From Neobacillus cucumis (GTDB lineage: Bacteria > Bacillota > Bacilli > Bacillales_B > DSM-18226): a stretch of DNA of 64,000 nucleotides. Location: the NCBI RefSeq assembly GCF_023715505.1, contig NZ_JAMBOH010000014.1:1-64000 (forward strand). The letters run 5' to 3'. This document shows, one piece after another, positions 130 through 64,000 of the stretch (position 1 is its first letter; each line of letters begins with the position of its first letter). The notes beneath the pieces are model-generated. The model was not told the origin of the DNA and ran no database searches. It worked only from the letters and a program-made list of their open reading frames with translations. The position numbers and the translations under genes are program-made.

Positions 130-430
130 GTTATTAGATATATAGAATAAAAAATCTTATGTGGAGAATGTCTGACAGAAATAAATTCACTTTATTCGCA
201 TGTATGTACTGATGGGCAACGTTTGAATTTCTTTTTTATTACTTGCCGAAAAATGTCCTCTAGAGGATAGCCCTGTTTCTTCAATATTTAAATGCACCTC
301 AGGATTAAACTCCATACTCTTCACCCAAATAGATGATTTTGTAAAATAGTTTTACGATAGGTACCTTAATTGGACTTAAGATAAGGTTTATCTAAAGAAA
401 ACGACCAGACAAATATAGCAACAACTTAAG

Positions 431-5425: not shown

Positions 5426-5518
5426 TGGCTCTCCCCCTAAATAAGTTTTTTTAGTAAACCTGCTCATCATTTGTGTCAGTTCTGAAAGAGGTTTTAGAAA
5501 ACCTTAAAATCATTTTTA

Positions 5519-16776: not shown

Positions 16777-18329
16777 GGGGCTGTTGACAAAATGGGGTAG
16801 GAGCTGTGACTCCTTTCCCATTTTGTTTTTTTGTTGGTTAATTAATGATTTCTAATTTCTCTTCCATAATTTATTGGTCCTAATTCATCACCTTTATAAC
16901 CCGTTTTAGATTTATCGCCAACGCCTAAAAAAGACATTGTTCTTGAATTTTTTCAATGCCCCTTTTATACGTTTTATATAAATTGTGTTTTGATTTAATG
17001 GTTCCGATGGAACCTTCGCACCAGACTCTTCTTAATTTTTGAACCAGTTTGTACTCACTGGTCTTTGCTCTTTGAATATTTTCTTCCAATAACTCATGAG
17101 CAATAGGGCGAGCAATTGTCCTTCTACTAGCTGTCTTTCCAAAACAAGTTTCTCGAAGAGGACAGACTTTACAGTCTTTTGCTTTAGCAGAATACGTTTT
17201 AAAGTAATTTCCGTTCTTTTGTAATGCTAGATGAGTAAAAGTAAGTATTTTTCGATTTGGACAAATATAAGAACAGTTTTATTCTCATAGGTAAAATCCC
17301 TATGAGAAGTTGTCTTAAATGCATTGTCATGTTTAACAGGATTAATATAGCCTGTTATTTCCATAGTTTTTAATCCATGATAAATTGGTGTTGTATCATA
17401 TCCTCGATCTGCCCCAACATTTTTAATATCTAAATCAATTTTTCTTGAATCACTTTTAATCTTTCAACAAAGGGCTCACAATCATTTATGTTTCCTGGAC
17501 TCGGATGTATATCGTATGATTCCATTTTTGTATCAATACTTGTGTGTGCTAAGTAATGAGGTCCGGATGGCTTTCCAGGTCGATTTAATATTCCAGAGTC
17601 AGAATCAGTTTTAACGATGGATATTGTTTCAGTAGAAGGACCCTTTGGTTTTCGTCCCGATTTCTTTTTTCCTGATTCTATTCTTTTATCTTCTTGCTCT
17701 TTTTCAATTTTCTTTGCTTCTAGTTCAAGAGTATTTAAATATTGGGAAGGAGTCTTCTCAACAACCACTTTTTCGACTTTACTTTTTGCAACCCGGGCTT
17801 TAATATGAGTTGAATCTGTTACAATCACTTCTCCAGTAACTAATCCCTTCTCTATGCTAAGTTTTACAATATGATCGAAAATTTCCTGAAAAACTGTACT
17901 ATCCTTAAATCTTCTACGTCTATTCTGACTAAATGTAGAATGATCAGGTACAGAATCAGTTAAATCAAGTCCTAAAAACCAACGATATGCGATATTTAAG
18001 TACACCTCTTGCCCAATTGACGTTCGGAATCAATGTTAAAAAGATACCCAATTAGTATCATTTTAAATAAAAGTACAGGATCAAGTGATTTTCTGCCGAG
18101 TTTCGAATAATAACTTTCCATTTTGTTATATATAAAAAGAGAAATCAATCTTTTCTTTAATTAGGCGAAGAATATTATTTTGAGGGAACAAAAGTATTTA
18201 AATCAATAAACTCCATTTTACGTTGATACTCATCATTGTGGCCCATCATAAGAATTCCTCCAATAAAAAACCTGTATAGAGATAATCTACACAGGTTTTT
18301 GAAATTCCTATAAGTTTGTCAACAGCCCC
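16777..18329 (-). mobile_element. IS1182-family insertion sequence, complete ends
   Basis: Perfect 15-bp terminal inverted repeats (GGGGCTGTTGACAAA at 16777-16791 and its complement at 18315-18329) bound 1553 bp. Both ends are flanked by CTAGA (16772-16776 and 18330-18334), a 5-bp direct repeat containing the CTAG palindrome that IS1182 elements favour. The intact duplication shows a recent simple insertion, but the transposase is broken. Confidence 0.9.
16842..18249 (-). pseudogene. IS1182-family transposase, frameshifted
   Basis: The ATG at 18249 has GGAGG 7 nt upstream. The N-terminus (MMGHNDEYQRKMEFIDL, later LDPVLLFKMILIGYLFNIDS) is broken by indels near 18165 and 18010. The longest piece, 17430-18005, contains DHSTFSQNRRRRF and the first catalytic Asp in VIVTDSTHIKA. 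A further frameshift precedes NVGADRGYDTTPIYHGL, and the rest to 16842 is scrambled. It is dead, though its ends might still be moved in trans by another copy. Confidence 0.85.
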
Positions 18330-23812: not shown

Positions 23813-24094
23813 TTATTTGGAAAAATCAAAGTAGTTTCGCTTCAATAAGCGCGGAGCAGCCATTAGGGTTTCATACTTCATACTTTTTTCAAGCATAGAA
23901 GAATCAATCAAATATAGCTGATCCTCAATTTCTTTTACCGTAGTATCTGTTTGATAGTTCATTCCACATTCCAGGCAGAGAATGGACGGTGTGCCCTGAA
24001 TTTCAATTACTTTTGTTCCATCGGGAAGTTCCCAATACACTGTGTTGCTCGTTTCATGTACTGTTTCGGATTCGCACCATTGACAAATCAACAT
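23813..24094 (-). CDS. yokU: YokU-family small zinc-finger protein
   Basis: This 93-residue protein has two Cys pairs (CQWC at residues 4-7 and CLEC near 40-43), like the MqsA/YokU zinc-ribbon type. In B. subtilis yokU sits in the same position beside kamA. The start overlaps the kamA stop by one base. The role is unknown. Its constant pairing with lysine aminomutase suggests regulation or maturation of that enzyme (inference). Confidence 0.8.
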   Translation of the reverse strand: MLICQWCESETVHETSNTVYWELPDGTKVIEIQGTPSILCLECGMNYQTDTTVKEIEDQLYLIDSSMLEKSMKYETLMAAPRLLKRNYFDFSK

Positions 24095-25503
24095 TATTCC
24101 TCCTCTGCTCCCACCATCTCGTACTTGCTCATTTGCGCCTGGAACTTTTTCTCTTTTAACTCGTCACGTTTATCGCGTTTATCCTTTAAAGAGCTATGCT
24201 CAGGATTTTCCCGGTACGTTTTGCGGCGGTCTAAACGTTTCAAACCTTCCGGGGTCAAGTTAAATTTCGTATCATCAATAAGAGACAGGACACCATTGCT
24301 TTCAAACTTTTCAAATACTTCAGGATAGACCTTTTTATAATAATCTTCTGCACTGCCTGCCACATAGTTTAGCGGTTCAGGATAAGAGGTAATGACACCT
24401 TCAAAGTTACGTAACACGACCTTATTGGAGCTTTGAGAAATAATGTAGTTCGGCTGCAACGGAATTTTACCGCCTCCGCCAGGGGCATCAACGATAAATG
24501 TCGGAACGGCATAACCCGATGTATGGCCGCGAAGTCCTTCCATGATCTCCAATCCTTTACTGATTGGAGCACGGAAATGGCCAATCCCCTCTGATAAATC
24601 GCATTGGTAAATGTAATAAGGACGAACACGAATTTTAACAAGATCATGCATAAGCTGTTTCATGATTGGAACACTGTCATTGATCCCTGCTAAAATAACC
24701 GCCTGATTACCAACCGGAACACCAGCGTTTGCAAGCATTTCACAAGCGCGCTTCGATTCTTCTGTAATTTCTATGGATGTGTTGAAATGTGTATTTAGCC
24801 AAACTGGGTGATACTTTTTCAATATATTACAAAGATTTTCGGTAATTCGCTGAGGGAACACGACAGGTGCCCGTGTACCGATGCGAATAATTTCAACATG
24901 AGGAACCTCACGTAAATTTTTTAAAATATATTCTAAAATATTGTCATTGATAAGGAGACCGTCTCCTCCGGAAATTAACACATCTCTGATTTGCGGATTT
25001 GAGGCAATATAATTTATCGCTGTGTCTAACTGCTTCTTTGGTACGCCCATTCCAATTTGTCCGGAAAAACGTCTTCTGGTACAGTAACGGCAATACATGG
25101 AGCATTGATTTGTTACCAAGAACAGCACGCGGTCAGGATAACGATGGGTTAACCCTGGTACTGGTGAATCCTCATCTTCGTGAAGGGGATCTTCTAAATC
25201 ATATTTTGTTTTATGCAGTTCCTGAGAAATCGGCACAGACTGCATTCTAACCGGACATCTTGGATCATCTTGATCCATAAGCGATGCATAATATGGCGTA
25301 ATATTTAATGGAATTGTTTTCGTTGAGATTTTAACGCCTTCTTCTTCCTCAGGTGTTAAGTTAACAACTTTCTTTAAATCATCTAAATTTTTAATTGTAT
25401 TGGTCAGCTGCCAAACCCAATCGTTCCATTGCTCATCGGTTACATCCTTCCAAAGCTCGATTTCTTTCCAATGTCTTTTCGGTTTGAATAAAGTGTTTCT
25501 CAT
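24094..25503 (-). CDS. kamA: Lysine 2,3-aminomutase
   Basis: This 469-residue radical SAM enzyme has its [4Fe-4S] motif Cys134-x3-Cys138-x2-Cys141 (NQCSMYCRYC) and a PLP-binding Lys in the glycine-rich VDAPGGGGKIPL. It converts L-lysine to L-beta-lysine using SAM and PLP. The full family length is present and the GGGGGAG site fits the ATG. It is coupled to yokU downstream. The long charged C-terminal tail is typical of Bacillus KamA. Confidence 0.93.
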   Translation of the reverse strand: MRNTLFKPKRHWKEIELWKDVTDEQWNDWVWQLTNTIKNLDDLKKVVNLTPEEEEGVKISTKTIPLNITPYYASLMDQDDPRCPVRMQSVPISQELHKTKYDLEDPLHEDEDSPVPGLTHRYPDRVLFLVTNQCSMYCRYCTRRRFSGQIGMGVPKKQLDTAINYIASNPQIRDVLISGGDGLLINDNILEYILKNLREVPHVEIIRIGTRAPVVFPQRITENLCNILKKYHPVWLNTHFNTSIEITEESKRACEMLANAGVPVGNQAVILAGINDSVPIMKQLMHDLVKIRVRPYYIYQCDLSEGIGHFRAPISKGLEIMEGLRGHTSGYAVPTFIVDAPGGGGKIPLQPNYIISQSSNKVVLRNFEGVITSYPEPLNYVAGSAEDYYKKVYPEVFEKFESNGVLSLIDDTKFNLTPEGLKRLDRRKTYRENPEHSSLKDKRDKRDELKEKKFQAQMSKYEMVGAEEE

Positions 25504-36956: not shown

Positions 36957-37108
36957 AATGATTCCACCTTTCAAAACTCTATATTGCTTAAGGAATCTAA
37001 TGCCCTTGCTATCATTCCAATTTCACGAAGAATTTCCTTCATAATTAATTCCTTTGACATATTTTGTTGCAAATCAATAAAAAAGGATGTAAATTAAATT
37101 CAACCTAA

Positions 37109-37130
37109 TTTTGTTGCACTTGCAACAAAA
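37109..37130. promoter_or_regulatory. Perfect dyad TTTTGTTGCA-CT-TGCAACAAAA
   Basis: Two 10-bp arms are perfectly complementary with a 2-bp centre. A further half-site TTTTGTTGCA lies near 37063. It sits between the PaiB-like gene and the YczE-like remnant. Size and symmetry suit a MarR-type operator. Confidence 0.5.
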
Positions 37131-37155
37131 AAATAAGGATAAGAGGTCGAGTAAA

Positions 37156-37302
37156 GTGAAATATGTTTTTTATGTATTAGGAATTTTAATCTTAACCCTT
37201 GGTATTTCTTTCATCATACAATCAGTACCTCATTCTTATTATACAAGAACCAATGATCTGTATATAAAGAAAAAGACCATTTACCATCGGTCTTTAGTTT
37301 AG
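37156..37302 (+). pseudogene. YczE/YitT-type membrane protein, N-terminal remnant
   Basis: The GTG at 37156 behind AGAGG gives 48 codons. KYVFYVLGILILTLGISFII resembles the first membrane segment of the YczE family, after which the sequence diverges and stops. The family normally has about 210 residues. Confidence 0.45.
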
Positions 37303-37312
37303 AAAATAAAAA

Positions 37313-37360
37313 GAAGCAGGGAATTTGGACTTTGTCCCCCTGCTTCCTCCATATATTTTT
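37313..37360. terminator. Intrinsic terminator-like hairpin
   Basis: GAAGCAGGG (37313-37321) pairs with 37338-37346, with an additional GGAC/GTCC pairing inside and a T-run after an 8-nt gap. A smaller AAAGACC/GGTCTTT hairpin lies just before it (37273-37295). Confidence 0.6.
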
Positions 37361-37399
37361 AATGCCCCTGCCAAGGAATTTCATATTAACACATTCCTT

Positions 37400-37571
37400 A
37401 CTAACTTGCCACGTCTATACTAACTAAAATATTCTCAAAAACTAAATCATTTTCTATGAATTTATCATAAGATAGGCCCATGATGTATTTTTCAACTTTA
37501 ACTTTATCGTCTAGCATATCTTCAATAAAACTCTAGGCTCCCTCAGCCCTTCCTTAATCTCCCTAAATAGC
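37400..37571 (-). pseudogene. Unidentified minus-strand remnant
   Basis: Two frames joined by an indel read ELFREIKEGLREPRV and then FIEDMLDDKVKVEKYIMGLS with a tail ending IDVAS at about 37408. The sequence is acidic and protein-like, and the family is unknown. It directly follows the DUF5412-like remnant. Confidence 0.35.
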
Positions 37572-37968
37572 TCATTTTCCCGTCGCCTTTTTGTCTGCAT
37601 AAAGGATCTTAACCCCATTCACTTCTTTATCCATTTTGTAGGTTTCAGAGGATTTATCATAAATCACTTTCAAGTTCTTGTCGTTTAGCCATCGAAAATT
37701 CTTTATCCGACCTAAATGTGTTTCCTGATTCATTTTGGAACTTTTCATCCTTATTTAAAATGGATAATTGGCGAGAATGTCCCGTCGTAGCTCCACAATT
37801 TCTTTCGAAAAGATATGCTATATTTTCACCATTTGGAGAATGGATTTTTTGTTTAATGTCGTTACCGCACATATCCCCAAAAATTGCATCCAGTGCAAAC
37901 TTTCCAGCCATAAATAAAGCAAGTATAATTATTATGGCAATTAGATACGCTTTTTCCTTATTCCTCAT
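37572..37968 (-). pseudogene. DUF5412-like membrane-anchored protein, frameshifted
   Basis: The ATG at 37968 follows GGAGGGAGG. One N-terminal membrane segment (AYLIAIIIILALFMAG) precedes the domain core (MCGNDIKQKIHSPNGENIAY, FERNCGATTGHSRQLSIL). Around 37690 the frame shifts: the continuation WLNDKNLKVIYDKSS through VNGVKILYADKKATGK is in another frame to 37572. DUF5412 function is unknown. Confidence 0.7.
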
Positions 37969-38215
37969 CAATTCTTCCTCCCTCCATTCGGATCCATCCA
38001 TAACTCCAATAACATTCACCCTAAGCCCGCCTAGATGGTAAAGCTTTTCAACAATCAGGAAGGAAAGAAAAATATAGCTATATTTGAAGCTGAAACAGGA
38101 GAACATATCTAGAAATGAGGAAGAATAAAATCAACCCAAAAATAAGTTGTTATTATTTTTCCCTATTTATTTGTTCTAATAATAAGATTGTAAACAAAAT
38201 TCGAGGAGGTCTAGT

Positions 38216-38380
38216 ATGCAACAGGATCAACAAGCTAAAGAGAATTTGGGCTCCGGTTCGATTATGAATCCAGAATTTGCTGGAACAGATGCACAAAAAG
38301 TAAAACAAGAAATTCAAAAAGATGTAAGCCAAGGACAAGGTGCAATGACTTCCCGGGAGGCAGGATCATTGCGCGATTAA
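38216..38380 (+). CDS. Gamma-type SASP-like small protein
   Basis: The ATG at 38216 behind GAGGAGGT gives 54 residues. The segment NPEFAGTDAQKVKQEIQKD resembles the repeat of gamma-type small acid-soluble spore proteins (EFASETDAQxVRxQN). It is Gln-rich, has no Cys and ends with a good terminator. Classical SspE-type proteins have two such repeats; this has one and a divergent tail. A forespore-specific role is inferred from this similarity only. Confidence 0.55.
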   Translation: MQQDQQAKENLGSGSIMNPEFAGTDAQKVKQEIQKDVSQGQGAMTSREAGSLRD

Positions 38381-38408
38381 AAAACCACGCCAGTGGTTTT
38401 TTATTTTT
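38381..38408 (+). terminator. Intrinsic terminator
   Basis: AAAACCAC (38381-38388) pairs with GTGGTTTT (38393-38400) across a 4-nt loop, followed by TTATTTTT. Confidence 0.88.
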
Positions 38409-38493
38409 CTGCCTTGCACTCCTAATTTTCTTTGGTGTTTTTGTAATGGTCAGTCCCTCTTTATACATAAAGATGTACAAAGGAGGATTTTTC

Positions 38494-38859
38494 ATGAAAA
38501 CGTATTTAACAGCAAATAACTTAATCAGATACGCAGTCGCCTATGTTTTTATTACCTCTGCACTTATGAAATTAATGAGTTCTGAATTAGCGAACCATTT
38601 TCTTGGATTAGGACTGCCCTATCCTCAGCAAATGTTAAAGCTAGTCATTTTCCTAGAAATGGTTTGCGGAATTTTACTATTAATCAATAAATCTGTTAAA
38701 AATGCGGTTGTACCTTTAATTGGCATCATGGTCGTAGCCCTTCTATTAACAAAGGTTCCCTTGTTGCACACCGGCTTCCTTCCATTTGCTTTTCAAGCTC
38801 GTTTAGACATTGTGATGTTAATTCTGCTTGTTTATCTATATAAGCACTCTCCTAGGTAA
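38494..38859 (+). CDS. DoxX-like small membrane protein
   Basis: The ATG at 38494 with AAAGGAGG gives 121 residues. Four hydrophobic segments are visible (RYAVAYVFITSALMKL, MLKLVIFLEMVCGILLL, AVVPLIGIMVVALLL, IVMLILLVYLY). The arrangement fits the DoxX/YphA-like superfamily of four-helix membrane proteins. The role is unknown. Confidence 0.6.
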   Translation: MKTYLTANNLIRYAVAYVFITSALMKLMSSELANHFLGLGLPYPQQMLKLVIFLEMVCGILLLINKSVKNAVVPLIGIMVVALLLTKVPLLHTGFLPFAFQARLDIVMLILLVYLYKHSPR

Positions 38860-38915
38860 TCCCTTCATGTGCTAAAATAATAACTATCTATTATTATTTG
38901 GTGAGTGAACACACT

Positions 38916-40013
38916 ATGAAACTAAAAGAAAAGGTAAAGTCTTTGCCACTAACTCCAGGTGTTTATTTGATGAAGGACTCCCATGGCCATATCATTTATG
39001 TGGGTAAGGCCAAAAACCTAAAGAGGCGAGTGCAGTCTTATTTTCAACAATCAAAAGCACATCCTCAAAAAATTAAAATGATGGTGGCTAACCTTAACGA
39101 TTTTGACTATGTTCTTACGGACACGGAATTCGAAGCTTTTCTGCTCGAATGTAAACTAATCAAGGAATTAAAGCCTCATTTTAACAAAAAAATGAAAAGT
39201 CCCCGATCCTATACTTATCTCGTTATAAAAATAGTTGAAGGAAAGCGGGTCTTGGAAATGGCCCACTCCTTTGTTGAAAATGACGGGAATTTATATTTCG
39301 GACCATATATAAACAAGCACACCGTCGAAAGAGCTATCATTGGAATAAAAGAAGCTTTTAAAATTTGCTGCAGCAACCCATCCATGAAACATGGACCGTG
39401 TTTAAATTACACTTTAGGAGTGTGTATCGGAATGTGTCTGGGAGGTTCCGCTTTAGAACAATATAATCGAATATTAGACAAAATCATTTCATTGTTAAAT
39501 AGGACGGACACAGAAATACTGGAGGAAATTGAGCAGAGGATGTTAGCTGCATCCGAACAATTCCAGTTTGAACTGGCGGCAAAATATCGGAACATCCTTG
39601 AAACGATCAATGCCCTCCTCGATAAGGAACAGGTCATCGAGTTCACAGAGGCAAATCAAAATATTGTCATCGTTGAATCCTTAACTGAGTCTACGTACAA
39701 ACTTTTTCTTATTAAGGGGAACAAAATTTTATATCGAGAAAAACTAAATAGCCAACAAAAGCAAGGGAACATAATGAATAACCTATTAACCTATTTTAAA
39801 AAGGCCCATCCCTGCTCTTCCATTGTAGTCAGTAAAGAGGAACTTGATGAGGCGCAAATTATTTACAGTTATTTAAAAAGCGGCAATTGCTTTTATCGTA
39901 TTATTCCTGATGATTGGCTTGAGGCTGGAAATGAGTCGTTTATTGATAATGTATTTGAAGAATTACTAAACGAAATGTTTACTATTAATTATAAAACTAT
40001 TGAAAGTTCGTGA
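38916..40013 (+). CDS. UvrC-like GIY-YIG nuclease lacking the second catalytic half
   Basis: From the ATG at 38916 it has 365 residues; a GTG at 38898 is also possible. The N-terminus is a UvrC-type GIY-YIG nuclease domain (GVYLMKDSHGHIIYVGKAKN, later Glu in TDTEFEAFLLEC and KSPRSYTYLVI). A four-Cys stretch follows (CCSNPS, GPCLNY, GVCIGMC), as in iron-sulfur-containing UvrC. Next come a UVR-like helix pair (EQFQFELAAKYRNILETINAL) and a start of the central domain. The RNase H-like 5'-incision and HhH domains of UvrC (about 600 residues) are absent, so by analogy with Cho it could make only the 3' incision. Confidence 0.8.
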   Translation: MKLKEKVKSLPLTPGVYLMKDSHGHIIYVGKAKNLKRRVQSYFQQSKAHPQKIKMMVANLNDFDYVLTDTEFEAFLLECKLIKELKPHFNKKMKSPRSYTYLVIKIVEGKRVLEMAHSFVENDGNLYFGPYINKHTVERAIIGIKEAFKICCSNPSMKHGPCLNYTLGVCIGMCLGGSALEQYNRILDKIISLLNRTDTEILEEIEQRMLAASEQFQFELAAKYRNILETINALLDKEQVIEFTEANQNIVIVESLTESTYKLFLIKGNKILYREKLNSQQKQGNIMNNLLTYFKKAHPCSSIVVSKEELDEAQIIYSYLKSGNCFYRIIPDDWLEAGNESFIDNVFEELLNEMFTINYKTIESS

Positions 40014-40041
40014 GGAGTCATCCGACTACATTTAGGAAAAA

Positions 40042-40084
40042 GGACAGGTTCCTTGTCTACCAATTTAATTGGACTAGCCTGTCC
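40042..40084. terminator. Nested hairpin between convergent genes
   Basis: GGACAGG (40042-40048) pairs with CCTGTCC (40078-40084). Inside, CCAAT/ATTGG (40060-40072) forms a second stem. It has no T-run but sits between two convergent stop codons. Confidence 0.5.
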
Positions 40085-40108
40085 CTATGTCATGAATAAC
40101 TTAAATAT

Positions 40109-42181
40109 TTATTCCAAAGAAATCTTCACAACGTCTTCCAAATATTTTGTTTTATTATATCCAAAAATCTCGAGCCTTTTAGGAATCACTTTTTCTCCAG
40201 TGCTATCATTGTCTAACTTCATATTTAGAACGGTAAAGAAATAACGAGGCTGCTTGATTTCTTCGTATGGGACAGGCGTATCGTTATCGTATTCCACTCC
40301 GTTTTTATCAACTAGCACTCCATCGGTATTCATCTCGATTGAACTAGCTTCCTTTTCACTCTCATCCACAATGCGAAATTGAAGCGACTCATATGCGCGA
40401 TTCTCAATTTCATGATTGCTTATGACAACATTGGTCGGCTGTCCAACTTCCACCTTGTCAATGGAGATTGTACTGCCTGCATATTCAAAGGTTTGAGGAT
40501 ATTTCAGAGAAGCATCCAGTTCAATGTTTTTTTGGTCTTCAAAACTTAAATAAATAGAACCCAGTTTAACGTTAATCTCTTTTGGCTTTTCTCCCAAAAG
40601 CGGATCAAAGTTTGTTTGAATAGTAGTCCAATTCATGTCTTGTTGTGAATCTGGAAAAGAGCTGCCAGTAAAATCAGGTTTAGCTTTCTTATTATTCACT
40701 TCTAAATAGTCAATATTGAGAGTTTCTATCCGTCTTTTTGACTGATCACTATTAATACTATATTGCAAAATCGTAGTTGTTGGAGCAATCGTAAGTTTAT
40801 CAAATCGAACCGGGATTCCCTCGACTTCTGTTTTTTCTTCCAATGCATATTCGACAGAGGGTTGTTTTGTTACAGGAATCTCAAAGTCCCACTCCCCCGT
40901 TTCATATTCCAATTTCTCATCAGCCCAATAACCATTCCGTTTAGTGGAATTACGATCCAACTTCTGAATCTTTGTGATCTGCAGTTTAATTGTCCCGTTA
41001 TCCTTGGAGAGTGGCAGTAGACTAATCTTTCCTCGATACATATTCTTTTCCTGTGTGTTTACATCCGATTCAAGATTTGGAGGATCGTACCTTTGATATG
41101 CTTCTCTGCTCATGATGTCATATTCGTTCTCCACATTAACCCCATAATCATAATTTATCACATATTGATTATCTTCATTTGTATCCTCTATTTCATAAAA
41201 AACAATCGTCTGAACATCATCAGCAATCGCACCTTTAATCTTAATTTTCACCCCATTGCTTTTTGCTTCCAGATTCAGCCTTTCACCAAGGTCCTGTCGA
41301 AGAAAGGCACGTAATTGCTGATCTTCTACTGTCCATGAATAGTAGAGGTTAGTAAACACCCCCATAAAAAAAACTATACCCATTAACAATGCGAATAAGC
41401 TCGCAAAAACAGGTCCCTTCCTTTTACGTTTTTTGATCTTCTGTCGTCTTTGCTTTTCCTCTTCGGCGAGCTTATCTTTGACGTTCTCCATGAAACCAGA
41501 TGGCACATGCAAATCTTGAAATGTTTCAGTAAGATCTAACATGGTTAACATGACTTCTTGAAAGGTAGCCAAATCCTCCTGACATCCTTGACAATGATAA
41601 ATATGTATCTCTAAATCAATCTTTTTCGACCGATCTTGGGTTCTTTCTAAGTAATCAATGTAATCCTTATGATACTCCTTACAGCCATTAAAGGTTGATC
41701 CATATCCCAGTTCTTTTCTAAGTGACTGAATACCAGAAAACAAAAGCTCTTTAACCTTTTCCACTGAAACTTGGAGAAGATGCGCTACCCCCTCCTTAGA
41801 GATTCCTTTTACATAAGTAAGGAGGATCGCTTCTTTCTCGTACCCTTTCAATTGATCAACTGCTTTAAATAAAACCTGACGTGGTTCACTATCCTCTGAA
41901 ACTTGTACACTTCTATTATTAGACAGCTCCCGGCAGATATGTATGAAAATGGAGGTAATCCACGTTTCGACTGGTATATCTTTTTTATATCTAGGCAACT
42001 GCTTTTGGACCTTTTTAATCGACCGATAAAAAAGCTCTTCCACTTGCTGCTGATTCATAAGATAGGACCAACCAAGTGCATAGAACGATTGTTTATGCTG
42101 ATCGAACCAATCGACGACGGATTCCAAGCCTTTTTCTCTTATCGTAGTGGTTGAAATGGAATCAACTTTTGTTGGGATCAT
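40109..42181 (-). CDS. Single-chain ECF sigma / zinc anti-sigma / DUF4179-type membrane protein
   Basis: This 690-residue protein starts at an ATG behind AAGGGGGG. Residues 20-90 resemble sigma-70 region 2 and 105-160 region 4 (EKEAILLTYVKGISKEGVAH with a helix-turn-helix). A zinc anti-sigma motif follows, His193-x3-Cys197-x2-Cys200, with an earlier Cys167. A basic stretch (RRQKIKKRKRKG) leads into one membrane segment at about 257-278. The outer 410 residues match the DUF4179/DUF5643 extracellular type of Bacillus anti-sigma factors. Sigma and anti-sigma parts are normally separate neighbouring genes; here no stop or start separates them, so the sigma part should be held at the membrane unless proteolysed. 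Confidence 0.75.
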   Translation of the reverse strand: MIPTKVDSISTTTIREKGLESVVDWFDQHKQSFYALGWSYLMNQQQVEELFYRSIKKVQKQLPRYKKDIPVETWITSIFIHICRELSNNRSVQVSEDSEPRQVLFKAVDQLKGYEKEAILLTYVKGISKEGVAHLLQVSVEKVKELLFSGIQSLRKELGYGSTFNGCKEYHKDYIDYLERTQDRSKKIDLEIHIYHCQGCQEDLATFQEVMLTMLDLTETFQDLHVPSGFMENVKDKLAEEEKQRRQKIKKRKRKGPVFASLFALLMGIVFFMGVFTNLYYSWTVEDQQLRAFLRQDLGERLNLEAKSNGVKIKIKGAIADDVQTIVFYEIEDTNEDNQYVINYDYGVNVENEYDIMSREAYQRYDPPNLESDVNTQEKNMYRGKISLLPLSKDNGTIKLQITKIQKLDRNSTKRNGYWADEKLEYETGEWDFEIPVTKQPSVEYALEEKTEVEGIPVRFDKLTIAPTTTILQYSINSDQSKRRIETLNIDYLEVNNKKAKPDFTGSSFPDSQQDMNWTTIQTNFDPLLGEKPKEINVKLGSIYLSFEDQKNIELDASLKYPQTFEYAGSTISIDKVEVGQPTNVVISNHEIENRAYESLQFRIVDESEKEASSIEMNTDGVLVDKNGVEYDNDTPVPYEEIKQPRYFFTVLNMKLDNDSTGEKVIPKRLEIFGYNKTKYLEDVVKISLE

Positions 42182-42509
42182 AAATGCGTTCCCCCCTTTC
42201 CTATCTTTACAACCTTTTGGCAGTTACTATTGACGCATTCATCCCCTGTATTAGTTATGATCTTTTAACCACCACATCCAAATATTTAAATAATTGTTAA
42301 ATAATACATATATTTATCTTATAATAACATAGTTCTTAAATTCTATAAAAAACAACAAAGTTTACGGAGTCAGCCTTTATAAAAGAAATAAAAGGCGTTC
42401 TTAAAAAAATAAGAAAAAAAAGATACCTTTACAATATTTGACAATCAAAGAAGGAAAAAAGCAATTTAGAAAAGAATAGAATGAGAGGATTACGAACAGA
42501 GGTGATATC
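42182..42509. promoter_or_regulatory. Divergent intergenic region
   Basis: This 328-bp AT-rich gap lies between the sigma/anti-sigma gene and the GNAT gene. A TTGACA occurs at 42438-42443 without a -10 at proper distance. I see no firm promoter or operator. Confidence 0.35.
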
Positions 42510-43337
42510 ATGTTAACAAAAGACGAATTAGCTTCTATAAAAGCACTTCAAGAGGTGTGTGAGCAAGACGGCGGATTCCAGCTAAAACTTAATTTTGACA
42601 TGCTAGAAAATAGAAACAGAATTAAAAAGGAAGACTTCTTTCATTATGAGGAAGGTAAACTTGTCGGTTTTCTTGGCAGCTATGTGTTTGGCAATAAGGT
42701 AGAGCTTTGCGGGATGGTTCACCCAGATTACCGCAGAAGAGGTATTTTTTCTAAGTTGCTAGAAATGGGTCTTGAGGAAACAAAGAAACGGAACATCCAG
42801 ACAATTTTATTAAATGCCCCTACTGATTCCTTATCGGCAAAGGAGTTTTTAAAGAATATTCCTTGTACCTTTTCAGTAGCCGAATATCAAATGAAATGGC
42901 AGAAAACAAATTTAATCGAAGACCCTGCAGTTACCCTCAGGCCTTCTACCACAACGGAGGATTTTGAAACTGAAGTACAGCTTGAAGTCTTGGCCTTTTG
43001 TTTTGAGGAGCAAGAATCTCGGGAGTATAATCTGAAACTCAGAGAAAACCACTTTAAGGAAAATTTCATCATTGAAGCAGACGGCAAAGCTGCCGGAAAA
43101 ATGCGTGTGGCTGAATCAGATAGTGAAGCTTGGATTTATGGATTTGCGGTATTTCCTGAACTACAGGGAAAAGGAATTGGCAGAAAGGCTCTATCAAGAG
43201 TTGTCAAGCTGGAGTTTCAAAAAGGATTGTCTATTTTCCTCGAGGTCGAGGCGAAAAATGCGCATGCTCTTAAGCTCTATGAATCATGTGGATTTAGAAG
43301 CTACCATTCTCAGGATTACTATCTATATCAAAATTAG
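42510..43337 (+). CDS. Tandem GNAT acetyltransferase
   Basis: This 275-residue protein has two GNAT modules. The first carries VHPDYRRRGIFSKLLEMGLE near residue 75. The second carries VFPELQGKGIGRKALSRVV near 220 and AKNAHALKLYESCGF near 255. Only the second has a canonical acetyl-CoA loop (Q/R-x-x-G-x-G/A). The substrate is unknown. AGAGGTGA precedes the ATG. It is a single gene with its own terminator. Confidence 0.82.
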   Translation: MLTKDELASIKALQEVCEQDGGFQLKLNFDMLENRNRIKKEDFFHYEEGKLVGFLGSYVFGNKVELCGMVHPDYRRRGIFSKLLEMGLEETKKRNIQTILLNAPTDSLSAKEFLKNIPCTFSVAEYQMKWQKTNLIEDPAVTLRPSTTTEDFETEVQLEVLAFCFEEQESREYNLKLRENHFKENFIIEADGKAAGKMRVAESDSEAWIYGFAVFPELQGKGIGRKALSRVVKLEFQKGLSIFLEVEAKNAHALKLYESCGFRSYHSQDYYLYQN

Positions 43338-43342
43338 TATGT

Positions 43343-43374
43343 AGAGCCTTTTTATGATCTCCATAAAAGGCTCT
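43343..43374 (+). terminator. Intrinsic terminator after the GNAT gene
   Basis: AGAGCC-TTTT-TATG (43343-43356) pairs with 43362-43374 across a 5-nt loop. A short T-run follows. Confidence 0.75.
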
Positions 43375-43520
43375 TTACCTTTGTAATTCTTGTAAAAAAT
43401 ACCTCGTTTGTTCCATCAAGATACACTTTTCGACTTTAATTTATGTTATAATGAAAGAGTTTACATAGGTGTTAATTACCTACTTACTTCTCAACAAGAA
43501 TGGTCTGGAGTTGATAAAAA

Positions 43521-44231
43521 ATGAATAATGTCTTAGAACGTTTAAATCCCGTTTTTGAGTGGATTACAAAGCTTGCCGGCACCAATCTGTTATGGGTTTT
43601 GTTTAACTTTCCGATTGCTTACCTAGTATTATCTTTATTTACTGTTAATGAGATGTCGCAAATTTCCATGTTAATTTTGACCATTGCCGTGCTGGCACCA
43701 TTTATTTTATTTCCTGCAACCACGGCTATGTTTGGCATTGTCAGGAAATGGATTATGAAAGAAGAAGTGCCAATTATTCGATTCTTTTGGAAATACTATA
43801 AGGAAAATTATAAGAGGAGTCTCGTCGGGGGATTGATTCTTACTGTTCTTTGGGCGATTGTTGGCGTTGATTATTATTATTTTCATTCCCGCATTTTCCT
43901 AGGCAGTTACCTATTTTTATTCCTAATGATTTGGCTGTTCATCATTACTCTTTTCTTTTTTGCCCATACCGTTCATACAGAAACGAGACTTGGACAAGCA
44001 TTAAAGAATGTGTTCATTTTATCGATTGCTAGCCCCATCCTTTCGTTTGGGATTGCCATTATCAGTATTGTCATTTTGTATATTAGTTTGATGAAAATAA
44101 CCTTTCTATTGCCATTTTTCAGCGGCTCGGTTATCTCTTTTCTCGGATTCTTTGCCTACTATAAGGTATTTACAAGGATTGTTCAATTAGAACAAAATGC
44201 TCCAGTTGAAAAAAATATGATAGAAGGCTAG
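43521..44231 (+). CDS. YesL/DUF624 membrane protein
   Basis: This 236-residue protein has about five membrane segments and the DUF624 opening LNPVFEWITKLAGTNLLWVL. In Bacillus such genes (YesL) accompany LplABC-type oligosaccharide importers and glycosidases. Here it points at the GH43/GH2/ABC locus from the other side of a shared terminator. A TATAAT at 43447-43452 is a likely -10. The function is unknown; an accessory role in sugar uptake is inferred. Confidence 0.8.
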   Translation: MNNVLERLNPVFEWITKLAGTNLLWVLFNFPIAYLVLSLFTVNEMSQISMLILTIAVLAPFILFPATTAMFGIVRKWIMKEEVPIIRFFWKYYKENYKRSLVGGLILTVLWAIVGVDYYYFHSRIFLGSYLFLFLMIWLFIITLFFFAHTVHTETRLGQALKNVFILSIASPILSFGIAIISIVILYISLMKITFLLPFFSGSVISFLGFFAYYKVFTRIVQLEQNAPVEKNMIEG

Positions 44232-44335
44232 GTTACTTGTGGTTGGCAAGCCCTAATTTACAGATAGTGAGCGCTAACTTGCGGAAGACAGCCCATACTT
44301 GTGGATAGCTGCACCAACTTGCGGATAGCGACCAG
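44232..44335. repeat. Array of four degenerate 20-25-bp repeats
   Basis: The units read roughly ACTTG(C/T)GGATAGC-N4-CC and occur four times in tandem (near 44233, 44275, 44297 and 44319). They are not coding. Such arrays are dispersed intergenic repeats in some Bacillaceae. Confidence 0.55.
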
Positions 44336-44341
44336 CCAAAT

Positions 44342-44370
44342 AAAATTCCTCTCTGACCGAGAGGAATTTT
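44342..44370. terminator. Bidirectional terminator between convergent genes
   Basis: AAAATTCCTC (44342-44351) pairs with GAGGAATTTT (44361-44370). The A and T flanks serve both strands (YesL-like gene on plus, GH43 on minus). Confidence 0.82.
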
Positions 44371-44386
44371 ATTTACTTTGTTCTAT

Positions 44387-45380
44387 TTAATCATGAAGAT
44401 CCACTCTAGCTTTAATAACCCTAAAGCTATCTTCCGTTTCCTCTACTTCATAAATCTTTGCCCGGGATTCAGGTGTACTGAATGGATGATGAAGAATAAG
44501 CATCCAATCCCCTTCAAATGTTTTGACCAGCATCCCATGTCCACTATCACCAACAACCAACGGGTCGAGTTTGCTCCCAAGGCCCTTCTAACTTACCTGA
44601 CCTAGATCTAGCTATCGTTTGGACATACCCCTCATTGTTATAGCTTGACCACAGCATCAGAAGGTGACCACCTTTTGTCCGGTATAATTGACATCCATCT
44701 GATACATAAACCGAAGGCTTCACATCAGGCTTTCGTTCAGCATTAATCCACGGGGCATCCGAAGCTTTAAAAAGATGTTGCGGATCCCCATCTGCTGCAG
44801 ATAAATCATCCTTTAGTGGAATGGCCTCAAACGTACCATCGATAACCTGAATCCATTCATGACAATAAACCATCCATGGCGTTCCTTCCTCATCCACGTA
44901 CAAGGTTCCGTCTAATGTCATGAAATTTCTAGGCGGCACCGGCCCATCCGTTTTTAGTAATTCAAACGGGCCCTCTGGCGAATCGGATACAGCAATGCTT
45001 GTGCCACGAAGATGATTGGTGTTCCAAACTTCAGGTGGTTCAGCTAGCTTCGTATCTCTATTATGAAGAGTAACGAATAAATAATATTTATCATGGTACT
45101 GGTGAACCTCTGGTGCCCATGTGCCATGCTGTGGATGGGCCCAAGTTCCATCAGGAACCTCGAAAACGACAATTGGTCCCTCCCAATCTAGTAAATCTTT
45201 ACTTTTATAAGCTAGTACACCATTTCTCTCTAAATCGGTTAATTCTGGAATTCCGGTTGTATATAAATAATAAGTATCTGTTTCTTTATGCGACAAGATG
45301 AACGGGTCGTGTGCAGGAATATCAATAAGTCGGTGCCCCTTTTTAGGATTCGATGTGTCAGAGGCCTTGTTATACGGCAT
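44387..45380 (-). pseudogene. GH43-family glycosidase, frameshifted near the C-terminus
   Basis: The ATG at 45380 (GGGAG upstream) opens a five-bladed propeller-type GH43. Putative general base Asp is in PAHDPFILSH, general acid Glu in HGTWAPEVHQY and the third acid in FMTLDGTLYVD. The frame ends at 44547 after TRPVGCW. One base shift there restores LVVGDSGHGMLVKTFEGDW through EVEETEDSFRVIKARVDL to a stop at 44387, giving about 330 residues, the normal length. Members release arabinose, xylose or galactose residues. All catalytic residues lie before the break, so the truncated form might still fold poorly or not at all. Confidence 0.8.
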
Positions 45381-59870: not shown

Positions 59871-61154
59871 TTAATACTCCCGCTTGATATCCTCTATAAG
59901 TCGATTAACCAAGCCTTCTTGGTAACCTGCTTTTTGTCTATCTATTAAAGTAGCAGCGACCTCAATTAGTTCTGGCGAAGTAATGCTTTGCATTTTCGAT
60001 AGTCTACTGGAAATATCTTCGTCGGAAATGGATACTTCATAGGCAACTGTATCCATTCTCCAAAAGATGACTCGATCTGGAAATCGGTCTTTTAGTCGTT
60101 GTGCCATCGCAATTCCTTCAGGATCCAGGTCTCCTGAATAATATAAATAGCAGCCAGATTCCACCAATAAATTCAATAAAACCCAGCTTGCCGCACGAAA
60201 TTGACCATGCGTGCAAATAACGGGAGCACCTGGAACCTCGTCTACGATCGTCGAACAGACACTTGAATTTTCTAAAATCCATACTTTTTTCCCTTTGACG
60301 GGCCAGATTCTTTTTAACTTCAATAATTCTTTAATCGGTACGTTTAAAACGGTATTCGTTTCTGCAGCCCCTTTCCATACGGGATGAATCCCTATCTCAC
60401 CTTCAGCAAGGAAACCACGGCAGGAAACAAAACTCCATAAATCATCTCGCATTATCCCATAGCTGCTTAATAATTCATTGAGTTCTTCTGTTGCTGAAGG
60501 CATTCCTGATTCACGAAGCCCCTTTATTTGCTGATCCACGGACATACAGTTAATTAGTAATTTTCCTGTAAGACTGCCATTATCAAAAAAATGAGGGTTT
60601 CCAGTTGTCCTTTGAGCGAATAATGGTAGTCTTTCAAATTTATCAGTTGCTGAAGGAATTTGTTGATAGGCCCTCCATACGGTTGTTACCTTTTCATAAA
60701 AATCGACTGGATCCTGTTTATACATCGACCAAATCCATCTAGCTTCCGGTGGCCTGGACTCCATCCAGTCCCACCACCAGCTTCCTTCTGGGTACGCAGT
60801 TCTAAGCTTTTGAAAAAAATCTCGCTCACTCTGTTTTACAAAATCATTTTCTTCCTGTTTTGTCTTAATCGACTCTTGGAGCACCTCTTCTAACAGCTGC
60901 AACAGCGTATAGGAGGAGAAAACCGTCTGCTTTAGTTCCTGTTCAAAGTCGAGTAATGAGATTTTCCCTTTCTTTATGAGCTTGTCTGTGGATTCACCCA
61001 AAAAACCGGCAATCGATTCCAGTTCTTCCTTCGTGAAGCTGCGAGTACTAACAGTACCACTGATTCTCCCGAGTGACCGGTATTTTTCCTTAAAAAGGGT
61101 AAAAAGCTTATGAAAGCCAGGTTCCTCCCTAAGAATTTGGACCCTGCTATTCAT
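59871..61154 (-). CDS. jetD: Wadjet nuclease subunit JetD (TIGR02679/DUF2399 type)
   Basis: This 427-residue protein begins with a DNA-binding-like arm (LFTLFKEKYRSLGRISGTVS) and ends with a Toprim domain: CTHGQFRAASWVLLNLL, then the metal motif YYSGDLDPEGIAMAQRL, followed by VIFWRMD. In Wadjet systems JetD is the topoisomerase-VI-A/Toprim-like nuclease that cuts circular plasmid DNA extruded by the SMC-like JetABC complex. The start overlaps the jetC stop by 8 nt. It is the last gene of the operon, with a terminator right behind. Confidence 0.85.
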   Translation of the reverse strand: MNSRVQILREEPGFHKLFTLFKEKYRSLGRISGTVSTRSFTKEELESIAGFLGESTDKLIKKGKISLLDFEQELKQTVFSSYTLLQLLEEVLQESIKTKQEENDFVKQSERDFFQKLRTAYPEGSWWWDWMESRPPEARWIWSMYKQDPVDFYEKVTTVWRAYQQIPSATDKFERLPLFAQRTTGNPHFFDNGSLTGKLLINCMSVDQQIKGLRESGMPSATEELNELLSSYGIMRDDLWSFVSCRGFLAEGEIGIHPVWKGAAETNTVLNVPIKELLKLKRIWPVKGKKVWILENSSVCSTIVDEVPGAPVICTHGQFRAASWVLLNLLVESGCYLYYSGDLDPEGIAMAQRLKDRFPDRVIFWRMDTVAYEVSISDEDISSRLSKMQSITSPELIEVAATLIDRQKAGYQEGLVNRLIEDIKREY

Positions 61155-64000
61155 GGTTTACCAGCTCCATCGCAGGAATATCATCCAATACCAAGGACCG
61201 CTTTTTCCCATCCCATTGGTAGCGGATTACCGTAACGAAATCTGCATTCTTCGGCCGGACTAACTCACATATCGAAAGACTGGAAATAGTATCATAATCC
61301 CCCCATAATGCCTGTGAGTTCATTATATAGTTAAAACCCAGTTGTTCCACTACTTCAAACATATCACGTATATTATTTTCATCGACACCTGCAAAGGCTT
61401 CATCAAGAGAAATGATAAAAGGTGCCATATCCCCTGCTTCTTTATAACGGGAATATGCAGCTGTAAACAACGGAATATACATCGCCATGGCCTTCTCACC
61501 ACCGCTGAATTTAAAGAACGCATTATTGGTCAGTTCGCGTTTCGGTTCATTCACCCGTTTGAAGGATAGGACAAATGTAAACCACTTTCGATAATCAAGG
61601 ACTTCTTTTAACACTTGATGAAGCGTTGAACCCTCGTTCCTTAGCTGGATCAATTCCTTGGCCTTGGCAATTCTCGATTGGAAGTGCTTAGTAATTCGGT
61701 GTAAATCTTCTTCGTTTAAAAATTTACTATTCCTTTGCAGCAGTTTTACAAGGTCCTCTGTGTCTAATTCCTGTTCTGATTCTGCCGTCAATGGCTTCCA
61801 AGCGATGGAGAACGTTAATCCTGATGAATTATCCCGGCTTTTCATGATTTTATCCATTTCATGGACCCAAGTCTCCGCTCGCTGGATCCGATTTCTCAGG
61901 ATAACCCCAACGGTATTAACGATGATATCTTCATACAACTGACGGTCTTGCTCATCCAGCCAGCCTTTTTGGTCTTCTACTTCTTTGGTTAGAGAGGCAA
62001 ATACAAAATATGGGCTGACCCGCTGTCCTTTATATTCCATTTGAATGATCCGCCGTCCCTTTAGCTGGTTCCATTCATTCAAGATGGGTTCATAATACTC
62101 ACCCCAATCCTGCGAAAACCATTCAGGGCGTTCTCTCTCTTCCGAGTATTCAAACATTCTGTATTCAGTTAGGAATACTTGCTCATTAATGAAAGCTTTG
62201 GTTAATTGTTCATTTAACTTAGAGCGGTCATATTTCCTCAAAATGGGTGCCAGCTCTTTAACCATTTGTTCAGAATTGACCTCTTCTATTTCCATAAAAC
62301 CTTTTGCCAATTCCGATTTCACCATTTCTTCCCACTCATTCGCCATATGGGACCAAAATTCAGAGTTTGTTTTGGCTGCAACTAACTCTTTTTGACAAGT
62401 GGCCTGGGCCATTTCCTTTTTGGGGATTAATACTATCAATTGGGTAAATCCATCCTCTGCTTCCCTAAGCGATTGCAGTACCCGCTGAATTTGCAGGCGG
62501 ATTTCATCAATTCCTTTTAATTTCAATTGTTTCTCAATCGATTCCACTTCTGCTTTTTCTTTTCGTAAAAGGGATTCCCTGATGTTCTGATCACCTTTTA
62601 TTTCGTCCAATTCCGTTTCCATTTCCATAATTCTATCCGTCAACCGGCTGATGGTCTTTCGGGTAAATTGACCTCTTTGGAATAGCTCTCTTAGATTAAA
62701 CAGTTCTGTTCTGTAATGTTTCGCCATCTCTAAGGCATGTTCTAAAATGTCATTGGTCAGGGAAAGATTGAGATGGCTGCCTAATTGATGAAGCTTTACT
62801 TTCACTGCTTGGAGCTGGCTGTGAACGTTTTTCCACTGTTCATCCAGCTGTTGATGGACACTTTTCTTTTCCTCTAACTGATGTCCCAATTTTTCAATTT
62901 GCTCGTTTACATCGCTAAGCACTTTGTCAGAAGGGATTGATTGTTTCCATTCCTCCGCGAGATGAATAGCTTCATCCAATAACAGACGCTCTTTAAGCAA
63001 CTGGTTAAATTCAATTTGAAGATGCTCTATCAGTTGTTCAAATTCTTTAATTTTCTCTTGCTGATATCGCTTGCGTGAGGAACGTCCGATAAATTTGGCC
63101 GGTCCTTCATTCGGTGCATGTCCCATTAAACAGCCAAGTGAATAGGTACCATCTACATCTACATGAAAACCCGATCCATCCTGTTCGATTGAGATACTTC
63201 TTAAAACTTCATCTACTTTGGTTTTGGTAATCGTGCTGTCTTCATCTAAATCAGGACAAAGGTAATCCGCCAGCGTAAAGCCGAGTAATTTCGGTTCAGG
63301 CCGGATGATGCGGTCATGAGTTGGGACAATGTCCTGTTCGGTTATTAAACTATCCAGTAGGCCCGTTTGTTTTATGGCAGATTCAATCCGTTCTCGCTGT
63401 TCTTCTGTCACATGATCCTGAAATTCTACCGCTGCATAAAAGGGAATAAATGCCTGACCATCCTTTTGCAGCTTCTCACGAAACAACTCTGTATCATTTG
63501 CCCGTTCAGGATTAGGCATCTTTAATGTTTTCCAATATTGAAGATCGTCTCGTGCTGTTGCAACCTCAATATTTTTATCGTCTATCGACTTCTCCAGTAG
63601 ATTTTTCTCAGTCAGCAATCTGGCTTTATAATCATTGAGCACCGCAAATAGCTGTTCACGGACTTGTTCGTATCGATTTTCCTCATACAATCCTTCAATG
63701 AGACGGGCAATTGTCTGCATTTTCTCGGTTGGAAAAACAAGCTTTGGATGCTCTTCCATCCAGGAAAATAGCTGCTGTTCCAGCTTTTGCTTTTCTTCGG
63801 TAAACCACTCTGCCAGGTGATCCAAACTTTTACGTAGTTCATCGATTTCCTTCTTTTTGTCAGAGGATTGCCTCTGTAAACGGTTATGATCCTCAAATAG
63901 CCGAGCTTCTTCATCTGACAGCTGTTTTAACGTGCTAAGCAATTGTTCATGATGGTTAATTTCTTGGATCCAGACAGAAAAATCAAACTCTTCCTGCTGA
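61147..64000 (-). CDS. jetC: Wadjet SMC-like ATPase JetC (TIGR02680 type), 5' partial
   Basis: The frame is open to the right edge, so 950 C-terminal residues are visible; the TTG at 63942 is internal. Long coiled-coil stretches (about 250-600 and 690-760 from the edge) flank an insert (PFYAAVEFQDHVTEEQRERI) seen in this family. The C-terminal head has the ABC signature FKFSGGEKAMAMYIPLF and Walker B APFIISLDEAFAGVDENN. The N-terminal head with Walker A lies beyond 64000. TIGR02680 proteins have about 1,350 residues. jetA and jetB (TIGR02677/TIGR02678 type) are expected farther right. Confidence 0.88.
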   Translation of the reverse strand, partial: QQEEFDFSVWIQEINHHEQLLSTLKQLSDEEARLFEDHNRLQRQSSDKKKEIDELRKSLDHLAEWFTEEKQKLEQQLFSWMEEHPKLVFPTEKMQTIARLIEGLYEENRYEQVREQLFAVLNDYKARLLTEKNLLEKSIDDKNIEVATARDDLQYWKTLKMPNPERANDTELFREKLQKDGQAFIPFYAAVEFQDHVTEEQRERIESAIKQTGLLDSLITEQDIVPTHDRIIRPEPKLLGFTLADYLCPDLDEDSTITKTKVDEVLRSISIEQDGSGFHVDVDGTYSLGCLMGHAPNEGPAKFIGRSSRKRYQQEKIKEFEQLIEHLQIEFNQLLKERLLLDEAIHLAEEWKQSIPSDKVLSDVNEQIEKLGHQLEEKKSVHQQLDEQWKNVHSQLQAVKVKLHQLGSHLNLSLTNDILEHALEMAKHYRTELFNLRELFQRGQFTRKTISRLTDRIMEMETELDEIKGDQNIRESLLRKEKAEVESIEKQLKLKGIDEIRLQIQRVLQSLREAEDGFTQLIVLIPKKEMAQATCQKELVAAKTNSEFWSHMANEWEEMVKSELAKGFMEIEEVNSEQMVKELAPILRKYDRSKLNEQLTKAFINEQVFLTEYRMFEYSEERERPEWFSQDWGEYYEPILNEWNQLKGRRIIQMEYKGQRVSPYFVFASLTKEVEDQKGWLDEQDRQLYEDIIVNTVGVILRNRIQRAETWVHEMDKIMKSRDNSSGLTFSIAWKPLTAESEQELDTEDLVKLLQRNSKFLNEEDLHRITKHFQSRIAKAKELIQLRNEGSTLHQVLKEVLDYRKWFTFVLSFKRVNEPKRELTNNAFFKFSGGEKAMAMYIPLFTAAYSRYKEAGDMAPFIISLDEAFAGVDENNIRDMFEVVEQLGFNYIMNSQALWGDYDTISSLSICELVRPKNADFVTVIRYQWDGKKRSLVLDDIPAMELVNHE

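Follow-up and report, generated by a model that had tools for sequence, protein, structure and literature searches.

A single gene in a 64,000-nucleotide stretch of Neobacillus cucumis DNA (positions 1 to 64,000 of contig NZ_JAMBOH010000014.1, assembly GCF_023715505.1; hereafter the window) encodes a membrane protein in which a sigma-like part, a zinc anti-sigma-type domain, one membrane segment and a large outer part are joined in one chain. Judged from its residues, the sigma-like part, which is related to extracytoplasmic function (ECF) sigma factors, is quite probably a pseudo-sigma and not a promoter-reading sigma factor. The best reading of the whole protein, to which we give an even chance, is that of a pseudo-sigma/anti-sigma fusion that is locked in the membrane and acts through sigma mimicry or titration, with a logic like that of the alphaproteobacterial protein PhyR, and not that of a sigma factor released by proteolysis. 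Titration is a weaker step in this reading than the identification of the pseudo-sigma.

The gene is located on the minus strand, between 42181 and 40109, where an initial annotation of the window had correctly placed it, and forms one open frame of 690 codons plus stop (protein P0001), with an ATG at 42181 and a stop codon at 40109-40111. The good ribosome site claimed for it is recovered as a Shine-Dalgarno-like AAAGGGGGG 9 bases before the ATG; the word AAAGGGGG is encountered upstream of 43 of 77 family genes. Profile matches and hydropathy also bear out the claim that the four parts share one chain. The sigma-like nature of the N-terminal part holds as well. The NCBIfam model sigma70-ECF (TIGR02937) matches residues 25-158 at E 1.4e-10, and yet its 41.0 bits lie under the cut-off of 42.9; the Pfam models likewise stay below their cut-offs, that of sigma region 4 at E 3.6e-4 and that of region 2 at E 0.055. 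A profile of 17 family rows matched SigW in the PDB at E 8.8e-9, across both sigma domains. The weak or sub-threshold model matches, taken with the SigW match, indicate that the homology is real and that the sigma domain is unusually divergent. The Pfam PhyR_sigma-like model is matched at E 1e-3 or better by 12 of 70 family members, and no Pfam match to a receiver domain was found in the window protein. Many of the homologues are annotated by database sources as 'sigma-70 family RNA polymerase sigma factor'.

Residues of the contact type were compared between 78 fused rows (77 loci and the window) and 40 ECF genes of six genomes that also carry fused loci. Position Q52 is glutamine in 37 of the 40 ECFs and is occupied in the fused rows by tyrosine (74) or phenylalanine (4). 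Similarly, D85 is aspartate in 35 ECFs and glutamate in 77 fused rows, while R149, arginine in 33 and lysine in three of the ECFs, is serine in 66 fused rows and arginine in none. The basic run at positions 88-92 of the ECFs is replaced in the fused rows by neutral or acidic residues. Mean charge in region 2.3-2.4 is +4.42 for the ECFs versus -0.87 for the fused rows, and in the 4.2 helix +4.35 versus +0.74. Among 86 family rows, the region 2.2 residues Q52, D49 and E53, which we take to bind core polymerase, are present in 0, 3 and 2 rows, respectively, and the residues at -10- and -35-type positions, N81, D85, R88 and R149, in 3, 0, 7 and 0. In each of the three contact sets (core, -10 and -35), the lowest-scoring split relative is equalled or exceeded by 28 of the 40 ECFs and by none of 120 fused rows. 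The regions concerned are named in PMC7406223.

Because the first positions had been seen before scoring, a re-test was performed on positions picked from the ECF set alone, namely its 40 most conserved, of which 19 are polar and 21 non-polar. At the polar positions the score is 2.62 for the ECFs, 2.14 for six split relatives, 0.07 for the 86 family rows and -0.32 for 34 other fused rows; the highest family row (0.97) stays below the lowest split row (1.25), so that the two do not overlap. At the non-polar positions the corresponding scores are 2.55, 1.87, 1.34 and 1.04. The collapse of the polar scores, beside a far smaller fall of the non-polar ones, indicates that residues of the fold type are largely kept and those of the contact type are not. 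R149 is present in all six split sigmas, in none of the 86 family rows and in 8 of the 34 other fused rows.

The sigma part is under purifying selection. The ratio of nonsynonymous to synonymous substitution rates (dN/dS) was obtained from 53 close pairs (52 for sigma 4), many of which share locus L001. Sigma 2 has a value of 0.23 and sigma 4 one of 0.31, beside 0.29 in the zinc domain and 0.33 in the outer part. In the zinc domain, H193-x3-C197-x2-C200 and the further cysteine C167 are kept in all 78 rows, and H-x3-C-x2-C is found in 27 of 28 divergent fused rows. No match to the Pfam zf-HC2 model was reported in the window protein, and the NCBIfam anti-sigma model NF052375 matches it weakly (E 1.1e-5). 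In class I anti-sigma factors, helix 4 docks on sigma regions 2.1/2.2 and helix 1 on sigma 4 (PMC7406223); a putative helix-4-like stretch is conserved here, with P227 in 77 and F230 in 69 of the 78 rows. Low dN/dS, invariant zinc ligands and the well-conserved helix-4-like stretch together argue that the gene is not a dead remnant.

Four two-gene relatives (L210-L213) were identified by a sigma-profile search of 299 genomes. They consist of a sigma gene followed by a separate gene for the zinc, membrane, DUF4179 and DUF5643 parts; in L210 and L211 the two genes overlap by 20-35 bases, and in L212 and L213 they are 2-3 bases apart. Matches of the family profile to the outer part range from E 1e-71 to 1e-112. 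Their sigmas possess GTVKSR[LI]YRG in region 4.2 and a basic stretch, N-x-x-C/D...RK, after region 2.3, and all four pass the Pfam cut-offs for regions 2 and 4; both of the two-gene anti-sigma genes tested pass zf-HC2. Further, more distant two-gene pairs are L255 and L273. At L254 (L254:1-1018) an anti-sigma gene follows a sigma relative lying in more than one frame, either a broken gene or a sequencing error, and L256 is an anti-sigma-like gene with no sigma upstream. A search for close relatives of the sigma part encoded on their own yielded 19 proteins out of 62 candidates. These were taken as cut forms and not as true two-gene kin, which came from the genome surveys alone; the nine of the 19 that were inspected show a family-like start and then run into the zinc region, or stop or shift frame near it.

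Other fused lineages have been altered in different ways. L225-L230 keep KSRLF[RS]G and have part of region 2.3 deleted; L231-L233 lack some 30 residues in the interval from region 2 to region 4 and keep H-x3-C-x2-C; L261-L263 are without H-x3-C-x2-C; and in L234 the zinc ligands and much of the sigma part are gone, the outer part being kept. One genome holds both this fused L234 (G168:C1), without zinc ligands, and the separate L256 (G168:C6), with H-x3-C-x2-C. In a quick tree of 51 rows, built from the zinc domain to the outer domain, 46 of the 47 fused rows group together, set off from the four split rows by a branch with 100% support in the Shimodaira-Hasegawa-like approximate likelihood ratio test (SH-aLRT). 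This grouping fits one main fusion; the long-branched L234 lies outside the fused group and its placement is unsure. Judged by sequence, the fusion is old and widespread, and on the tree it is mostly of single origin.

The split relatives also carry a motif that the family has lost. At the end of the membrane segment, L210-L213 read A-V-A, A-V-A, A-F-A and V-V-A, thus A/V-x-A in four of four, and this may be their cleavage site. Signal peptidase requires small residues at -3 and -1 (PMC8844934), and in RsiV the signal-peptidase site lies within DUF4179 (PMC6066255). In all 78 family rows the third position of the motif is a bulky residue (F, I, L, V or Y), the first is also unsuitable in 36, and A-x-A anywhere within residues 262-285 is found in five. 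Since the last residue is bulky throughout, release by proteolysis seems unlikely in the window's family, other sites or proteases being conceivable; the cleavage that the initial annotation had envisaged thus finds no echo at this position.

The shared -35/-10 motif that it had anticipated upstream does not emerge either. GGAAC-N14-20-CTC is found upstream at three of four split loci, at none of 77 family genes and at 2 of 28 other fused genes, in which both matches are at chance level and far upstream. The ECF pattern AAC-N14-19-CGT[ACT] is found at 10 of 77 family genes versus 7.3 in shuffles (highest 13), and in ECF controls it is found at only 11 of 38 versus 3.9 (highest 10), two of the 40 ECFs having been omitted for too little upstream DNA; such autoregulation is frequent among ECF sigma factors without being general. 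The window gene is among the ten, with one AAC-N18-CGTC match at -75, again at chance level. A loose sigma-A pattern occurs at 20 of 77 family genes versus 10.1 in shuffles (highest 19). An autoregulatory ECF-type promoter for the fused genes as a set was considered and is not supported by these counts.

The homologues are overwhelmingly single-chain. A homology search found 549 of them; H-x3-C-x2-C is present in every one of the 120 listed, and 119 of these are 670 residues or longer. The nearest, labelled Neobacillus vireti, is 90% identical to the window protein. A genome scan confirmed 136 relatives, of which 78 loci were kept, and in all 78, from separate assemblies, the gene is a single frame. 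They are distributed amongst Neobacillus, Cytobacillus, Lederbergia, Mesobacillus, Psychrobacillus, Virgibacillus, Peribacillus, Heyndrickxia, Sporosarcina, Robertmurraya and other genera. Locus L013 had appeared to be a split exception; its coordinates had merged an adjoining ECF gene with an intact fusion of 686 residues, so it is no exception to the single-frame rule, and it was excluded from the counts of zinc ligands, residues, contact scores, upstream motifs and dN/dS.

An outer-domain match occurs in 69 of 397 genomes sampled from the order. Of the 86 matches listed, 76 were counted, ten partial or weak ones being omitted (two each from G391, G242 and G142, and one each from G220, G249, G218 and G140), and two of the genomes behind the omitted rows were examined later (L257 and L273). 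Seventy of the 76 lie in frames of at least 630 residues, called fused by length, in 60 of the 397 genomes; 42 fused frames from such genomes (28 + 14, of which one or more may stem from the 299-genome survey) were checked and all have a sigma match. In a class-wide sample a match is found in 5 of 398 genomes. A DUF4179 search of ten genomes found at least one fused-length frame in each, and shorter separate DUF4179 frames also in eight. In some genomes two or three fused genes lie together in a stretch of a few kilobases (G352:C4, G200:C8, G083:C1 and G136:C34).

Several observations weigh against a membrane-locked pseudo-sigma as the best reading. The Pfam region 4 model is matched at E 1e-3 or better by 59 of 70 family members, and region 2 by 27 of 70. 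The four contact-position sets were picked after viewing the 78-row comparison, the GGAAC motif was read off the same four split loci in which it was counted, and the split sigmas compared are only six. Q52 is already gone in five of these six, so not every loss follows fusion; L257 (G242:C3) has, immediately ahead of an anti-sigma-like gene, a separate sigma frame of 127 residues that is strongly eroded, so erosion is not strictly tied to fusion. A second outer-domain match follows in the same stretch of L257. The other fused lineages retain part of the contact set, R149 in the eight rows counted above and KSRL in several, and a small last motif residue is kept in 7 of 28 divergent fused rows. 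No conserved neighbour or partner gene was found within 6 kb across 79 loci. Some of the altered positions are also anti-sigma contacts (PMC7406223), so that the changes could reflect retuned inhibition.

The main rival is an inert cytoplasmic anchor, in which the sigma/anti-sigma pair would be a folded plug and the outer part a surface binding protein without transcriptional output. This is possible if rather improbable. It fits distant fused relatives in which the zinc motif and much of the sigma part are gone and the outer part is kept, namely L234 and L261-L263, the latter without H-x3-C-x2-C; it also fits the lack of conserved neighbours and upstream elements that are more sigma-A-like than shuffles. 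Against it, the zinc ligands are invariant in the family and sequence change is no quicker in the sigma part than in the outer part, which is more than a mere plug should need. Less likely still, and on our estimate distinctly unlikely, is a working one-component sigma of the IutY type, in which a signal would lead to proteolysis and an active sigma with an unusual promoter preference would be set free. There is a fused precedent, IutY, set free through cleavage by Prc and RseP (PMC5411451), and SCO4117 of group ECF52 has the same order of parts (PMC5826349). The retained and selected sigma fold, the signal-peptidase site hosted by RsiV DUF4179 (PMC6066255), the -75 match of the window gene and the small motif residue in some divergent rows also point in this direction. 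The loss of ECF-conserved polar residues, relative to split kin, in 120 of 120 fused rows stands against it, as do an ECF-type promoter pattern at 10 of 77 genes versus 7.3 expected, the disappearance of A/V-x-A from every family row, and the deletions in region 2.3 (L225-L230) or in the linker and region 4 (L231-L233). On the same grounds of contacts, promoter and cleavage motif, the one-component sigma pathway put forward by the initial annotation is not upheld.

That two genes were joined by an assembly or sequencing error has a negligible probability. The small overlap of the genes in L210 and L211 does mean that one small indel could join them; the single frames at 78 of 78 loci and the 70 long frames among 76 outer-domain matches refute a frameshift or assembly error here. 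The initial annotation had reasoned that consistently split homologues would betray such an error, and the same 78 frames rule this out. What it named as grounds for its own dismissal came out mixed: a sigma match exists and the homologues are mostly unsplit, and the few split ones carry an intact sigma.

Under the pseudo-sigma reading, an ancestral two-gene ECF sigma/anti-sigma pair would have become one chain, and the sigma part would afterwards have lost promoter reading and retained its fold. The pseudo-sigma may then permanently occupy the zinc anti-sigma domain of its own chain as an internal ligand, by putative docking in cis. A change in the state of the DUF4179/DUF5643 sensor might offer the pseudo-sigma to another anti-sigma factor, in a PhyR-like manner, or might alternatively free the anti-sigma domain to hold another ECF sigma. 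The fusion protein itself would not start transcription. A more specific version, which we regard as rather doubtful, is a one-chain membrane partner switch in bacilli, in which the pseudo-sigma, no longer reading promoters, would be the ligand of its own zinc domain and the sensor would set the choice between holding itself and titrating other ECF systems.

ECF sigma factors provide one of the principal ways of sensing what lies outside the cell, and here a sigma/anti-sigma pair has seemingly been kept long after its sigma stopped reading promoters, in the fused form counted above in 60 of 397 genomes of the order. Sigma mimicry is, to our knowledge, known mainly from soluble PhyR; membrane-bound mimicry in bacilli, if true, would be an invention separate from it. 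The change can be put to a direct test, since extant two-gene relatives still have intact sigmas. The label 'sigma-70 family RNA polymerase sigma factor' is probably functionally wrong for many members.

The features of the gene are collected in Table 1. The membrane segment is the single clear one: its top 19-residue window (258-276) has a mean hydropathy of 2.54, and the best elsewhere is 0.95. The matches to the two outer-domain families named by the initial annotation are borne out, DUF4179 at E 5.6e-11, above its Pfam cut-off, and DUF5643 at E 3.5e-8, just below. Structure 3fbq, named BAS1627 in PMC6066255, matches residues 425-492 at E 2.9e-4.

Table 1. Coordinates of the fusion gene and its parts in the window
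Feature	Position	Strand	Basis
Whole gene: putative pseudo-sigma / zinc anti-sigma / membrane / sensor fusion	40109..42181	-	549 homologues, 78 related loci
Shine-Dalgarno-like AAAGGGGGG, 9 bases 5' of the ATG	42191..42199	-	read from sequence
Part resembling sigma region 2 (residues 20-92), with core- and -10-type residues substituted	41906..42124	-	
Part resembling sigma region 4 (residues 104-158), with arginines of the -35 helix substituted	41708..41872	-	
Zinc anti-sigma-type domain, residues 164-250; C167, H193, C197, C200	41432..41692	-	
Membrane segment (residues 257-280, approximately), preceded by a Lys/Arg-rich stretch	41342..41413	-	hydropathy
DUF4179 match (residues 251-332), covering the membrane segment and the juxtamembrane part	41186..41431	-	Pfam
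Outer part, residues 281-690	40112..41341	-	
DUF5643 match, residues 444-557	40511..40852	-	Pfam

The widest cluster of neighbours, of the ATP-binding cassette (ABC) transporter type by eye, occurs within 6 kb at 23 of the 79 loci, and the next at 8. An Rfam scan of 37000-45000 found nothing at gathering score. In the window, the plus strand at 38898-40013, convergent with the fusion gene, encodes a protein of 371 residues with GIY-YIG and UVR motifs that resembles the N-terminal half of UvrC. JetD2 (E 5.9e-154) and JetC2 (E 2.4e-300) of a Wadjet-type defence system lie on the minus strand at 59871-63942, the N-terminal third of the latter being beyond the window edge. Also on the minus strand are a Rieske ring-hydroxylating dioxygenase alpha subunit (4142-5470), around which an aromatic-degradation cluster is recognised by eye at about 1.5 to 12 kb; a transposase piece with DUF772 (17430-18005); and lysine 2,3-aminomutase (24094-25503), in what appears by eye to be a lysine/CoA-transferase cluster at 22-36 kb.

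A layout without precedent, as first supposed, this is not, since fused ECF/anti-sigma membrane proteins have been published, IutY being shown and ECF48, ECF52 and ECF53 predicted (PMC8999054, PMC5411451, PMC5826349). IutY of Pseudomonas putida (ECF243) and these three groups share with the window protein an ECF sigma, an anti-sigma and a membrane segment in one chain, and ECF52 (SCO4117) also a zinc finger and a large outer part (PMC5826349). The sigma part of IutY is reported to work after proteolysis, and that of SCO4117 to activate genes and to be autoregulated. Set beside these published descriptions, the window fusion is without the ECF-conserved contact residues, has a DUF4179/DUF5643 outer part and has bacilli as its hosts. 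No fused form with a contact-less sigma and no paper on a DUF4179/DUF5643 sigma fusion was found in a literature search that did not cover the 2021 ECF reclassification (PMC7826278). The sigma-like domain of PhyR, from the alphaproteobacterial general stress response, has an ECF-like fold with degenerate core and promoter regions, as here, and titrates the anti-sigma NepR (PMC8103513). PhyR is a soluble response regulator, whereas the putative mimic in the window is membrane-bound and fused to a zinc anti-sigma domain, with no receiver domain found. Anti-sigmas of the RsiV and BAS1627 type, partners of ECF30, likewise have DUF4179 after the membrane segment, but their genes are separate from their sigma, and the signal-peptidase site of RsiV has no counterpart in the window's family at the A/V-x-A position compared. 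Also close are the two-gene relatives L210-L213, L255 and L273, which have the same order of parts across a gene boundary and differ in that the sigma gene is separate and promoter-type residues are largely kept. The sigma/anti-sigma layout in one chain is thus already known, and what is new in the window's protein is that its sigma part looks disabled.

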